Shown: positions 40,432 through 44,453 of the stretch, in pieces
Position numbering within the stretch: the stretch's first letter is position 1
How the letters are laid out: each line of letters opens with the position of its first letter
Origin: Roseateles aquatilis
GTDB lineage: Bacteria; Pseudomonadota; Gammaproteobacteria; Burkholderiales; Burkholderiaceae_C
Direction of reading: 5' to 3'
DNA length: 64,000 bases
Assembly (NCBI RefSeq): GCF_002205645.1
Contig: NZ_NIOF01000011.1
Span: forward strand, 1-64,000
Translations under genes and position numbers: made by a program
The notes under the pieces: generated by a model
What the model was told of the DNA's origin: nothing
Databases searched by the model: none
Seen by the model: the letters and a program-made list of their open reading frames with translations, nothing else

Positions 40432-41766
40432 TCAGCGCCGCTCGACCAGCACCGGCGTCAGCGCCATCGCGGTACGCACGCGTTCGGCGGCGGCGCGGGC
40501 GTCCTCGCGGCTGCTGAACGGACCGGCCTGCAGGCGGTGCAGGTTCTTGTCCTTGAAGATGGTCAGCATCGGCGCCAGCGATTCCATGCTGCGCATGAAC
40601 TGCTCGCGCAGCGACTCCGCGCCCTCCAGTCGCGAGAACGCGCCGAACTGCAGCCAGTAGCCGGATGCGGCGGCGATCTTCATCGGGGGCACCGGCGCGC
40701 GCGGGTCCGTGGCAGCGATCGCGCCGGCGGTCGCCGTGGCGACGGCGTCGGCGCGCGATTGACCGGCCGGCGGCAGGTCGCTGCCGGGCGGCAGCGCGGT
40801 GACGGGGATCGGGACCAGGCCGGAGGAGGCGACCGCCGCGGAGGGCGTCGATGACGACGGCGATGTCGCTGCCGTCGATGTCGATGTCGATGTCGATGTC
40901 GATGCGATCGGGGGCGCCGCCGAGGCCGGCGAAGCGGTGAACGTGGGGGAGGCCGCCGACGGCGGGATGGGCGATGCGGCCGGCGGCGTCGTGGCCCGCG
41001 CGGTGCGGGCGGGCACCGGCACCGGCACCGGCACCGGCACGACCGGGGTGATCGGCGGCCGCAGCTGCGCCGTCGTGGTCAGGTCTGGCGCGCCGCTGGG
41101 CGAGGCGGCCGCGTAGACCGGCGTGTCGGGCGGAACCTTTGGATCCGGGGACAGCGTGTCGCGGTCGCGCGTCCAGGCGCCGGTGCGGATGTCCTCGTAG
41201 GTGATGCGCTCGATCTCGACCGGGCTGACGCCGTGCAGCACGTCCAGCTTGAGGGCGGCGGTGTAGCTCAGGTCGATGATCCGGCCCTTGTGGAACGGGC
41301 CGCGATCGTTGATGCGGACGATGATCTCGCGGCCGTTCTTCGGGTTGCGCACGCGCGCGTAGCTCGGGATCGGCATGGTCGCGTGGGCGGCCGTCATCGC
41401 GTACATGTTGTAGACCTCGCCGCTGGAGGTCGGTTTGCCGTGGAACTTGCGGCCGTACCAGGAGGCCAGGCCCTTCTCGACGATCGCCTTGTCGTCGACC
41501 ACGGGCTCGTAGCGCTGGCCCAGGACTTCATAGGGCTTGTTGGGGCCGCCCTTGCGGATCGACTCCAGCCTGGGCATGGCGTCGGGGACGCGCTGCAGAT
41601 CGGGCGGGATGGTGGCCTCGGGGCCGTCCCGGTCGGGCCAGGAGGAGACCTTGGGACCGCCGGGAACGGGACGGCTGGGGGCGGGACCTCGACTGGCGCA
41701 GGCGGCCAGGATCAGGGCACACGTCAGGACGGCCAGGCGCTGGCCGGCGGGGCGGGCTTCAAACAT
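40432..41766 (-). CDS. rlpA: RlpA-like septal lytic transglycosylase lipoprotein with SPOR domain
   Basis: 444 residues. Lipoprotein signal with lipobox ILAACAS; a double-psi beta-barrel domain with GLASWYGRKFHGKPTSSGE and the catalytic-type Asp in RINDRGPFHKGRIIDLSY; a long Pro/Thr/Ser/Ala linker with VPVPVPVP and STSTSTST runs; and a C-terminal SPOR domain (YWLQFGAFSRLEGAESLREQ onward) that binds denuded peptidoglycan at the septum. RlpA cleaves naked glycan strands during daughter-cell separation. The linker runs are encoded by perfect hexanucleotide repeats that could change length. ATG 41766 with AGGG about 9 nt upstream. Confidence 0.92.
   Translation of the reverse strand: MFEARPAGQRLAVLTCALILAACASRGPAPSRPVPGGPKVSSWPDRDGPEATIPPDLQRVPDAMPRLESIRKGGPNKPYEVLGQRYEPVVDDKAIVEKGLASWYGRKFHGKPTSSGEVYNMYAMTAAHATMPIPSYARVRNPKNGREIIVRINDRGPFHKGRIIDLSYTAALKLDVLHGVSPVEIERITYEDIRTGAWTRDRDTLSPDPKVPPDTPVYAAASPSGAPDLTTTAQLRPPITPVVPVPVPVPVPARTARATTPPAASPIPPSAASPTFTASPASAAPPIASTSTSTSTSTAATSPSSSTPSAAVASSGLVPIPVTALPPGSDLPPAGQSRADAVATATAGAIAATDPRAPVPPMKIAAASGYWLQFGAFSRLEGAESLREQFMRSMESLAPMLTIFKDKNLHRLQAGPFSSREDARAAAERVRTAMALTPVLVERR
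40874..40903. repeat. (GTCGAT)5 microsatellite in rlpA
   Basis: Five perfect GTCGAT units on the plus strand encode the Ser-Thr run of the RlpA linker. In-frame length changes would only alter linker length. Confidence 0.9.
41012..41040. repeat. (GGCACC)n microsatellite in rlpA
   Basis: Nearly five GGCACC units on the plus strand encode the VPVPVP run of the RlpA linker. Confidence 0.9.
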
Positions 41767-41796
41767 GGGCGCAACCCTAGCAACGCGGCGCGGTTT

Positions 41797-41970
41797 TGCC
41801 AAGGGAAGGTCTGCACGGCGCCTCGCGGCTGACGCGGCCCCGATCCGGGATGCGCTGCAAGGCGCCGACCGCAGCCATCCGACGCCATGGCGAGGAGCTG
41901 CCGTGCCGCAGAGCGCCCGAAGCGGGGCTGCGGCGGCTGTGGGGCGCCATGCAGACCTTCCCAAGGGTAT
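41797..41970 (+). ncRNA. Long imperfect hairpin, candidate structured RNA
   Basis: Arms 41803-41849 and 41916-41962 can form 43 of 47 pairs as plus-strand RNA: 38 Watson-Crick and 5 G-U, with single mismatches at 41816, 41832, 41843 and 41845. After a 3-nt bulge four more pairs form (41853-41856 with 41912-41915), and weaker pairing continues inward to the palindrome CGCCATGGCG (41883-41892). All five wobble pairs are G-U on the plus strand and would be A-C mismatches on the minus strand, which suggests selection as a plus-strand RNA. It fills most of the 243-nt gap between rlpA and the FAH gene. Could be a regulatory leader, a small RNA or a palindromic mobile element. Confidence 0.6.
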
Positions 41971-42009
41971 GCTCCACGCTCGTTTTTCCGTCGTATCGAC
42001 CGCACCGCC

Positions 42010-42708
42010 ATGAGCACCTACATCTTCCCCCCAGCGCCCCAGGCCGCCGTGGCCGTGCGCGGCACCGACGCGCAGTACGCCGTCAGCCGGATCTTCTGCG
42101 TCGGCCGCAACTACGCCGCCCATGCGCGCGAGATGGGCAGCGACCCCGACCGCGAACCGCCGTTCTACTTCACCAAGCCGGCCAGCGCGCTGGCCCCGTC
42201 GGGCGGCACCATCCCCTACGCGCCCGGCACGAAGAACCTGCATTACGAGATGGAGCTGGTGGTGGCCATCGGCAAGCCGGTCTTCAAGGCCACGCCCGAG
42301 CAGGCCGCCGACGCCGTGTGGGGTTACGCCGCCGGGCTCGACATGACCCGCCGCGACCTGCAGAACGAGGCCAAGGCCATCGGCCGCCCGTGGGACCTGG
42401 GCAAGGGCTTCGAGCATTCGGCCGTGATCACCGCGCTGGTGTCGCGCGCCGAGCTGGGCGAGCTGTCCAAGGGCGCGATCACGCTGTCGGTCAACGGCGT
42501 CGAGAAGCAGCGCGGCGACCTGTCCGACATGATCTGGAGCATCCCCGAGCTGGTGGCCAACCTGTCCCAGTTCTATCACCTGGAGCCGGGCGACCTGATC
42601 TATACCGGCACGCCGGAAGGCGTCGGTCCGGTCAAGCCGGGCGACAAGATCGTCGGCGTGATCGAGGGCTTCGGCGAGCTGACCCTCACGATCGGCGACG
42701 CCGAGTAA
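42010..42708 (+). CDS. Fumarylacetoacetate hydrolase family protein
   Basis: 232 residues, a short single-domain FAH protein. FCVGRNYAAHAREMG and the metal-binding acidic pair in NLHYEMELVVAIGK are present, along with SQFYHLEPGDLIYTGTPEGV. This short type includes fumarylpyruvate hydrolase of the gentisate pathway and acylpyruvases or oxaloacetate-handling enzymes, so hydrolysis or decarboxylation of a 2,4-dioxo or related acid is likely; no pathway partner is adjacent to decide. No Shine-Dalgarno before ATG 42010. nadC follows after 17 nt, so the two probably share a transcript. Confidence 0.87.
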   Translation: MSTYIFPPAPQAAVAVRGTDAQYAVSRIFCVGRNYAAHAREMGSDPDREPPFYFTKPASALAPSGGTIPYAPGTKNLHYEMELVVAIGKPVFKATPEQAADAVWGYAAGLDMTRRDLQNEAKAIGRPWDLGKGFEHSAVITALVSRAELGELSKGAITLSVNGVEKQRGDLSDMIWSIPELVANLSQFYHLEPGDLIYTGTPEGVGPVKPGDKIVGVIEGFGELTLTIGDAE

Positions 42709-42725
42709 GCAGGACGGCGTCGGCG

Positions 42726-43586
42726 ATGTTCGATCACAACGAGACCCTGGACGAGGCTCGCGCGCGCAACATCCGCGACGCGCTGTTCGAGGACATCGGC
42801 GTCAGCGACTGGACCGCGCGGCTGGTGCCCGCGGACCGGCGCGTGAAGGCGTCGGTCCGTGTGCGCGAGGCGGCGGTGCTGTGCGGCCGCGACTGGTTCG
42901 AGGGCGTGTTCAAGGCGCTCGATGCGTCGTCGGCGATCGAGTGGCTGTACGACGAGGGCGCCGACATGGCGGCCGATACCGTTGTCTGCCGCATCGAGGC
43001 CGACGGCCGCGCGCTGCTGTCGGCCGAGCGGCCGGCGCTGAACTTCCTGCAACTGCTGTCGGGCACGGCGTCCGTCACGCGGGCCCATGCGCGCGCGATC
43101 GAGGGCGCCAGTCCCAACCCGAACGGCTGCGCGGTGCTGGACACGCGCAAGACGCTGCCCGGCCTGCGCCTGGCGCAGAAGTACGCGGTGCGCGTGGGCG
43201 GCGGCGCGAATCAGCGCCTGGCGTTGTACGACGGCATCCTGATCAAGGAAAACCACATCGCCGCGGCTGGTGGCGTCACGCAGGCGCTGAAGCAGGCGCA
43301 TGCGCTGAATGCCGGCGTCACCGTCCAGGTGGAGGTCGAGACGCTCGACCAACTCCGCGAGGCATTCGCCGCGGGCGCGGTCAGCGTGCTGCTGGACAAC
43401 TTCACCGAGGCCATGATGCGCGAGGCCGTGGCCGTCACGGCCGGTCGCGCGCTGCTGGAGGTCTCCGGCGGCGTCGCCATCGACCAGCTCCGCTGGATCG
43501 CGGCGACGGGCGTGGACAGGATCTCCGTCGGGCGGCTGACCAAGGACGCGAAGGCGGTGGACTACTCGATGAGGGTCGAAGGCTGA
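42726..43586 (+). CDS. nadC: Nicotinate-nucleotide pyrophosphorylase (quinolinate phosphoribosyltransferase)
   Basis: 286 residues, the normal length. Converts quinolinate and PRPP to nicotinate mononucleotide, the de novo entry to NAD. Signature residues are intact: ERPALNFLQLLSGTASVT, LDTRKTLPGLRLAQKYAV and GGGANQRLALYDGILIKENH, then LEVSGGVAIDQLRWIAATGV and DRISVGRLTKDAKAVDYSM. nadA and nadB are not adjacent. A perfect terminator follows 32 nt after the stop. Confidence 0.96.
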   Translation: MFDHNETLDEARARNIRDALFEDIGVSDWTARLVPADRRVKASVRVREAAVLCGRDWFEGVFKALDASSAIEWLYDEGADMAADTVVCRIEADGRALLSAERPALNFLQLLSGTASVTRAHARAIEGASPNPNGCAVLDTRKTLPGLRLAQKYAVRVGGGANQRLALYDGILIKENHIAAAGGVTQALKQAHALNAGVTVQVEVETLDQLREAFAAGAVSVLLDNFTEAMMREAVAVTAGRALLEVSGGVAIDQLRWIAATGVDRISVGRLTKDAKAVDYSMRVEG

Positions 43587-43649: not shown

Positions 43650-43688
43650 TGACACTGGCTGTCTTCTCAATTGCAGGAGTCAGCAAGT

Positions 43689-44453
43689 ATGGAAGCGAGC
43701 AATGATGGAACGGTCCCAGACGCGAACGTGGGAACGCTTCGCGAGATCCTGGATCGATGGACAGTCACCAAAGCCTGTCTCGTCTTGAACGAAGTAGAAA
43801 GCCGCCTTCGGCTCCTGGCCGAGTTGCGGGGAAAACTGGACAAGGTGGGGGCCGACGAGGTCCATGAGCTTCAACCGCTTTTCAAGCGAGGGCTCTGGAT
43901 GCTTGGACCGCAGTTCGAGTCCGCCGAGTTCACGGCCAATCTGGGCATGACGCGTGTGGTCCAGCGCCTGTTCAAGAACCCTCTCGGCGTGGCATCCCGT
44001 CGTCGGCCGGATTTTGTCGTGCTGACCGACAGCAGTGTCGGGCTCTATTCCTGTCCCTCGTTCAATGACGGACACGAAGTGGATGGCTCCGAATGTGTCG
44101 TGGTCATCGAGTTGAAGACCACCGGCCGACGGCTCTGTCGCGATGATCGCGAGCAGGTTTGGAGCTACATCGAAGAACTCATCGCGATTGGCTACATCAA
44201 GCCCAGTACGCGAGTTGATGGCTACATCTTTGGCGACCAAATCGCGCGCGGCGAGGATCGCGTCACTTCCTACACCGACAAGGTGAAGATTCGCCCGATG
44301 CTCTACGACACCATCCTGGCCCGAGCCCAGTCACGGCTGCTGAATCTCTATCGGGAGGTCAAGAACGCGCCGTTTCTGACGGACATGGCACCGGAGAACC
44401 CTCGGCGGCCGGAGTCCGTGACGGCCGCGCGCGCGAGCCTCGAAGCGGCCTGA
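43689..44453 (+). CDS. PD-(D/E)XK nuclease-like protein, orphan
   Basis: 254 residues, not assigned to a named family with certainty. A helical N-terminal third is followed by FTANLGMTRVVQRLF, then RRRPDFVVL and VVVIELKTTGRRL, which match the Asp ... Glu-x-Lys core of PD-(D/E)XK nucleases, and a downstream VWSYIEELIAIGYI helix. A similar domain forms the C-terminal part of some Hsp90-like ATPase proteins of suspected defence function and of Shedu-type nucleases; here it stands alone. ATG 43689 has AGGAG 9 nt upstream. Codon use is noticeably less GC-rich than in nadC, and it lies between a terminator and a stable hairpin, so it may be transferred DNA. Confidence 0.6.
   Translation: MEASNDGTVPDANVGTLREILDRWTVTKACLVLNEVESRLRLLAELRGKLDKVGADEVHELQPLFKRGLWMLGPQFESAEFTANLGMTRVVQRLFKNPLGVASRRRPDFVVLTDSSVGLYSCPSFNDGHEVDGSECVVVIELKTTGRRLCRDDREQVWSYIEELIAIGYIKPSTRVDGYIFGDQIARGEDRVTSYTDKVKIRPMLYDTILARAQSRLLNLYREVKNAPFLTDMAPENPRRPESVTAARASLEAA

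Follow-up and report, generated by a model that had tools for sequence, protein, structure and literature searches.

The hairpin that fills the spacer between rlpA and the FAH-family hydrolase gene of Roseateles aquatilis is a MITE-like element and not a conserved leader of the FAH gene. In the stretch of DNA analysed here (64,000 nt of contig NZ_NIOF01000011.1, hereafter the window), we very probably see a 158-bp non-autonomous element with IS5-type ends, which entered the promoter region between the divergent rlpA and FAH genes and left a 4-bp duplication of its target. The locus is an ordinary insertion of this kind; its interest lies in a covarying, strand-polarised hairpin core that occurs with many kinds of ends. 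The best reading of the window copy is a decaying IS5-type MITE belonging to an order-wide family with this core. The features of the locus are listed in Table 1. An open frame downstream of nadC (43671-44453, 260 aa) gave no Pfam match at E 0.001.

Table 1. Features of the inserted element and its neighbours in the window.
Feature	Position	Strand	Basis
rlpA (DPBB and SPOR domains)	40432..41766	-	PF03330, PF05036
Left target-site duplication copy, CAAG	41800..41803	.	Empty site GC-CAAG-GTTATGCT in relatives
5' arm of the long stem	41803..41849	+	38 Watson-Crick and 5 G-U pairs of 47 with the 3' arm
Inserted MITE-like element, 158 bp	41804..41961	+ (orientation set by core)	Absent from 15 other Roseateles species
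Left terminal inverted repeat, GGAAGGTCTGCA	41804..41815	+	Exact reverse complement at the right end
Core hairpin, degenerate copy of the order-wide core	41857..41909	+	R1 match 41834-41932, 54.6 bits, E 2.2e-16
3' arm of the long stem	41916..41962	+	Pairs with the 5' arm
Right terminal inverted repeat, TGCAGACCTTCC	41950..41961	+	Exact partner of GGAAGGTCTGCA
Right target-site duplication copy, CAAG	41962..41965	.	Same comparison with empty sites
FAH-family hydrolase gene	42010..42708	+	PF01557
nadC (quinolinate phosphoribosyltransferase), downstream of FAH	42711..43586	+	PF01729, PF02749

Comparison with related species firmly showed that 158 bp had been inserted, with duplication of 4 bp. 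FAH orthologs were present in all 16 Roseateles genomes examined, including that of the window, and alignment of the upstream regions showed that the rlpA-FAH spacer lacks the element in all 15 other species; one of these spacers (L123) was longer, with an unrelated sequence. The empty site in the relatives reads GCCAAG-GTTATGCT, and the occupied site in the window reads GC-CAAG-[GGAAGG...CCTTCC]-CAAG-GGTATGCT, its right flank being one base off the empty site. Taken by itself, the window site is fitted equally well by a 2-bp duplication and an element 2 bp longer; we prefer the 4-bp duplication because copies in relatives have duplications of 4 bp. A sequence-only reading of this DNA had favoured a leader of the FAH-nadC transcript or an independent small RNA, with a mobile palindromic element as its main alternative. 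The former was not upheld, given the 15 other species without the element, the target-site duplication and the relatives of the element elsewhere in the genome; the latter was borne out by the empty sites, the duplication, the terminal repeats and the related copies. A conserved FAH leader was rejected on the empty sites, and the question of the locus is settled as a lineage-specific transposon insertion. Phage origin was also rejected, since the window copy had no match in phages and the exact core pattern was absent from viral contigs.

We regard the element as MITE-like because an IS5-family element of a sister species (G006) has similar ends, GGAAGCTCTGCA / GGATGCTCTGCA, with one mismatch of 12 at one end and two at the other (L137). 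The G006 element is 1.18 kb long and reads CTAG-GGAAGCTCTGCACAAATC ... GAGTTGTGCAGAGCATCC-TAAG, with differing flanks; its two open frames, searched separately, matched PF05598 (DUF772) and PF01609 (DDE_Tnp_1), and the transposase frame is split by a stop. We take this domain pair, together with a preference for YTAR targets, to be traits of the IS5 family. The window element shows the marks of a MITE, namely 158 bp without a transposase, exact terminal inverted repeats, a duplication with an empty site and dispersed copies, and that of an IS5 derivative, namely ends in common with the IS5-family element of the sister species. When the genome of the window was searched for the longer end motif GGAAGGTCTGMAYRARTC with at most one mismatch, a single lone match was obtained, and no transposase was recognised by eye in the frames surrounding it.

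A sister class of copies was abundant in Tibeticola sediminis, where 137 forward and 149 reverse end-motif matches were found in 2.7 Mb, many of them in pairs 142 bp apart. In the 800 kb examined (40 pieces of 20 kb, L289-L328, picked around end-motif matches), 57 end pairs enclose 161-162 bp, and 40 of these 57 copies have identical 4-bp flanks. Half of the 40 equal duplications (20) were CTAA, TTAG or CTAG, 23 fitted YTAR, and CAAG/CAAG occurred twice. Seven further end pairs enclose 71-86 bp without a core. With respect to an autonomous partner, the 40 pieces contained three far end pairs in which no transposase was recognised by eye, and none was found for the CTAGTGT ends in G042. Several observations count against the reading of the window element as an IS5-type insertion: its target CAAG is one position off the YTAR consensus, its right flank does not fully match the empty site, the G006 element has unequal flanks, and the lone end-motif match in the own genome had no recognisable transposase around it.

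The geometry of the hairpin was recomputed. As RNA of the plus strand, 43 of the 47 positions of the arms are paired, as the sequence-only reading had stated. Its claim that all wobble pairs fall on one strand fails, because two of the four unpaired positions are A-C on the plus strand (41816/41949 and 41845/41920; the other two are A-G) and become G-U on the minus strand, giving five wobble pairs on plus and two on minus. This asymmetry (one-sided binomial about 0.23) carries little weight. The folding free energy of the plus strand was -127.2 kcal/mol, as compared with -85.9 (sd 4.35) in 200 shuffles (z -9.5, no shuffle as low), and that of the minus strand was -111.2 kcal/mol (z -5.6); the minimum free energy fold, to which the earlier reading had pointed as a check, is thus stable well beyond shuffles. 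An ungapped scan of the whole window for 47-nt arms with at least 38 Watson-Crick pairs and a limited spacer returned this hairpin (41803-41849/41916-41962) as its sole match, and the best arms in two mononucleotide shuffles of the window had 30 and 31 such pairs.

A functional RNA of the locus, retained by the host as a FAH-nadC leader or as a separate small RNA, would be in keeping with the very stable plus-strand fold, the plus orientation facing FAH and the family-wide conservation of the structure described below. We nevertheless consider it very unlikely. The 15 other Roseateles species lack the element though rlpA and FAH are adjacent in them, the core in the window is degenerate with a wobble count of just five against two, and the class of copies with the window's kind of ends shows no wobble bias. 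Furthermore, no promoter-like or terminator-like match was found in 41700-42100, and no Rfam family reached its gathering score in the window. An Rfam scan of eight representative loci of the family gave a single match, to an SRP RNA elsewhere in L212.

Copies related to the window element were dispersed in its own genome. A blastn search gave 13 rows, including the window copy and its self-complement, and the copies were diverged (75-90% identity, partial lengths) and hence not recent. The covariance model R1 gave 19 rows in the same genome, corresponding to 12 strong places (E<=1.3e-13), 4 opposite-strand echoes and 3 weak matches; the best score was 107.4 bits, as compared with 54.6 for the window copy. 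On contig 17 (L003/L045, 583-976), three core elements follow one another in tandem at a spacing of about 145 bp, and the linkers between them are similar.

Beyond this genome, blastn matched 18 of 60 genomes of relatives (own included) and 8 of 45 genera. R1, built from the A1 copies and scoring at most 16 candidates per genome, matched 74 of 250 sampled genomes of the order and 48 of 121 genera, again with the own genome included. A core-pattern scan of genome contigs found at least 119 stretches; the pattern fixes most of the core, so that core conservation in A1 is partly due to how the copies were selected, while the arms were left free. Among 80 matches listed, most titles named genera or families of Burkholderiales, and metagenome-assembled genomes titled Desulfovibrionaceae, Proteobacteria or uncultured bacterium also appeared. 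Stretches similar to a Tibeticola copy occurred on plasmids of Cupriavidus, Comamonas, Mitsuaria and, outside the order, Martelella, three of six being conjugative; a Tibeticola copy had no match in E. coli genomes.

The ends of these copies are diverse. Clustering of 175 distinct copies by their outer arms gave 48 clusters, the largest with 60, 18, 16, 12, 8 and 5 members, and the cluster of 16 is the class with the window's kind of ends. Ends in these 175 copies include GGCAACGCTGAATAAGT, GGAAGNTCTGCA, CTAGTACNGCNACCC, CTAGTGTGGTGTTTCATG, CTAGTGTTCTGAGYTGGAGG, GAACCTGTTTACGATCTC and CCTAAATCCGGCAGTTG, and a further 80 copies added GGGGCTGTTTGCAATTGG, CTAGTGTCTAATTGCATAAG, AGTAGTCCGTTCCGCC and others. 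A transposase was tied to one end type only, that of the window; the other types may belong to different IS families. At 11 of the 80 loci, a second core in opposite orientation lay nearby. Elements with two opposite cores (L430-L433, L355, L360, L367, L411-L413, L439) have a BIME-like appearance, several with a short CC..GGG spacer. In G213, a single-contig genome, 14 listed core copies had an identical model score, and the two copies read (L348, L349) sit in a repeat of about 270 bp with ends AGAACCCATTTCATAAATAGG, which looks like a recent amplification.

The core of the family is about 53 nt long, is centred in palindromes with many dissimilar ends, and has the consensus GCNAGGCGCAAACCRNAGCCATAGC-nnn-GCTATGGCGAGGATTTGCAACGNCGC, which is partly fixed by the scan pattern. 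Motifs close to AGGCGCRAA ... TTYGCAACG are retained in distant copies, and in several of 20 such copies the apical stem differs in sequence yet still pairs. In the window, 4 of the 25 R1 pairs are non-standard, two of them lacking a base, and the core of this copy is degenerate; the copy is probably decaying. Covariation, which the earlier reading had named as a mark of an RNA role, was strong for the family core: among 69 copies, 14 of 25 pairs were changed on both sides, and the covariation score was 0.239, as compared with 0.069 in shuffled alignments, with 0 of 500 as high. With shuffles of this kind, relatedness alone may yield a higher score where there is no structure; the slid controls, which retain relatedness, scored at most 0.074.

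Strand asymmetry of the wobble pairs was counted after alignment of the family arms with a G-U-blind score. On the plus strand of the core, 152 copies (23 of the 175, with short arms, were dropped) gave 6664 Watson-Crick, 565 G-U, 135 A-C and 884 other pairs; these cells are not independent events, many of the 565 recurring at a few fixed positions. When the count was restricted to unique events lying beyond about 20 nt from the core, it gave 190 G-U against 61 A-C. A second, non-overlapping set of 80 copies, from which 30 near-duplicates were dropped and two of which gave no arm pairs, showed 80 G-U against 21 A-C outside the model helix in the 50 non-redundant copies. At mostly Watson-Crick positions, G-U exceeded A-C in class 0 (53 vs 7), class 3 (13 vs 2) and class 1 (13 vs 5). 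The same was seen, at 30 vs 3, in the 35 copies that fall outside the end-defined classes (ends were checked for part of the members). These comprise 33 from Roseateles plus L066 and L081 from other genera, and the count was unchanged when those two were left out. In contrast, the class whose ends are of the window's kind, with 16 copies found in G011 and G014, had 6 G-U against 10 A-C; the window copy is outside this class, its core being too degenerate for the filter used. Class 5 had 0 vs 3 and class 4 had 1 vs 1, and classes 6 to 8, with three copies each, had none.

These counts divide the idea that wobble asymmetry marks a structure of one strand. It held for the wider family (565:135 and 80:21, together with the covariation), but not in the class with the window's kind of ends (6:10). 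For much of the family there seems to be constraint on a folded single strand; none was detectable in the class whose ends are closest to those of the window copy. The classes with no G-U excess (6:10, 1:1, 0:3) lend no support to structural selection in the window copy itself. The folded strand would be RNA or single-stranded DNA, either of which gives the same covariation and wobble signal.

Strand-biased mutation is a possible cause of the G-U excess. The unique-event excess among the 57 Tibeticola copies was weaker (27 G-U vs 14 A-C), and changes at their paired sites were mostly C to T (72) as compared with 12 A to G. The usual deamination in replication or transcription would give the opposite sign, an argument that depends on heuristic gene orientation, and class 0 favours G-U by both routes (GC to GU 40 vs GC to AC 7; AT to GU 8 vs AT to AC 0).

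Another explanation of the symmetry of the arms is template switching at the DNA level during replication (a mechanism described in PMC8794818), by which one arm would serve as template for the other without any folded strand being under selection. Nine pairs of copies had matching flanks, and four same-site pairs from different Roseateles species were counted. L003/L071 and L114/L115, in which only one flank matches, were left out, as were L005/L102, L099/L100 and L109/L112, whose shifted arms make a naive alignment read 13, 19 and 5 broken pairs. Most pair changes in the four were double: 8 transitions and 11 transversions from one Watson-Crick pair to another, as compared with 11 one-sided changes. 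L058/L071 contributed 3 transitions and 3 transversions, L097/L107 5 and 5, L063/L064 (one flank 97% identical) 1 transversion and L011/L105 2 transversions; two further double changes involve a non-Watson-Crick pair. Double transversions need no G-U step, and without intermediates they fit template switching as well as selection. On the other hand, the bulges and internal loops of the core recur in many genera (in a sample chosen partly by pattern), although arm copying would erase them, and an excess of G-U over A-C on one strand is unexpected without a strand-specific constraint. We regard template switching as a rather unlikely explanation. It and selection are not exclusive; the double changes may come from template switching and the maintenance of the core from selection, and it is because the unpaired bases of the core persist that selection on it is argued.

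Heuristic gene calls served to examine the contexts of the copies. Of the 35 mainly Roseateles copies, 18 lay between convergent genes, 11 had both neighbours on minus, 3 were plus-plus and 2 divergent, one being undecided. The stop codon of a minus-strand right-hand gene fell within -14 to +13 nt of the stem foot in 20 of 28 copies (19 of 26 without L066 and L081; some copies are orthologous to each other). An annotated plasmid copy from Mitsuaria sp. 7, a strain placed in Roseateles, agrees, with a minus-strand CDS end abutting the match. Tandem contexts in six non-overlapping groups numbered 40 minus-minus against 22 plus-plus by these gene calls, and were reversed in class 0 (7 to 9). The tendency of the plus strand of the core to be antisense to the genes in tandem contexts sits awkwardly with a simple 3'-UTR RNA role on that strand.

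The nearness of minus-strand stop codons, in copies outside the end-defined classes, and the annotated CDS end are what would be expected of a transcription terminator or 3'-end hairpin adopted by the host. For the window copy this is most improbable: rlpA starts at 41766 on the minus strand and FAH at 42010 on the plus strand, placing the element between two 5' ends, a rare, divergent kind of context for the family in which neither neighbour needs a terminator, and a search for a GC-rich stem followed by a T run gave 0 matches in 41700-42100. Insertions near stop codons, imperfect hairpins with conserved unpaired bases and the occasional pair of opposite cores also recall REP or BIME-type repeats moved by a RAYT (Y1) transposase, a reading to which we give almost no credence. 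Two Y1_Tnp genes were found in the genome, and REP/RAYT was rejected on finding no match to the element in either of their loci of about 3.3 kb. The family has terminal inverted repeats with 4-bp duplications, which are not known as features of REPs. In the aligned copies, inspected by eye, there was no head of the GTAG/GTGG type at the stem foot, by which REPs are defined in PMC2817692.

Our preferred account is thus an insertion of the 158-bp element into the rlpA/FAH region of this Roseateles lineage, in which the ends would have been recognised, and the element moved, by an IS5-family DDE transposase supplied in trans, with duplication of the 4-bp target. The long hairpin would be a family trait rather than an adaptation to this locus, with fixed internal loops in a short central core and palindrome arms that extend from it to the transposon ends. 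Compensatory changes keep the pairing across the family, with G-U exceeding A-C on one strand, so that the folded strand, more likely RNA than single-stranded DNA, was probably important for the survival of the element. Our best guess is that run-in transcripts fold and then stop or are processed at the element, which might make insertions near gene ends tolerable.

We propose tentatively, with somewhat less than even confidence, that a portable structured core, kept as a folded single strand, is common to MITEs with a dozen or more dissimilar ends across Burkholderiales. If so, the core would be the thing selected, the ends being swapped around it and the palindromes growing or being re-copied, and this structural cargo would unite otherwise unrelated MITEs as one functional superfamily. 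The naming and explanation of MITEs usually start from their ends and from the transposase that mobilises them. A core that covaries while the ends differ implies that the central part of the element serves a selected function, and the question of why strong hairpins form in many bacterial MITEs becomes testable. A search of literature that lacked most subscription journals found no description of a shared hairpin-core family.

The window element resembles prokaryotic MITEs in its size class of 100-200 bp, the lack of a protein, terminal inverted repeats, target duplication, an intergenic position and a transcript that would form a stable stem-loop. The accounts of these elements drawn on from PMC10969869 and PMC2229807 do not mention one structured core across many dissimilar ends. 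REP/BIME repeats with RAYT (PMC2817692) are similar in being imperfect palindromes near gene ends, sometimes in inverted pairs. They differ in their RAYT link and GTAG head, neither of which was found here, and the present family has terminal inverted repeats and target duplications. ERIC and Correia/NEMIS are likewise short palindromic mobile repeats with a folding RNA. Each of them has a single kind of end, whereas the core of the present family, compared by description, has conserved internal loops and many kinds of ends. According to the part of PMC2229807 that treats them, their RNA can influence adjacent mRNA, with an effect that for ERIC depends on orientation, and its table gives TA as the termini of ERIC and Correia/NEMIS. 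With IS5-family derivatives, the window element shares GGAAGNTCTGCA-type ends, a 4-bp target (often YTAR in the sister class) and a full element in a sister species; no full matching IS was found in its own genome by the end-motif search with at most one mismatch. It differs from them in its arms, whose complementarity extends far beyond the repeats of about 12 bp to take in the entire arm, and which enclose the core.
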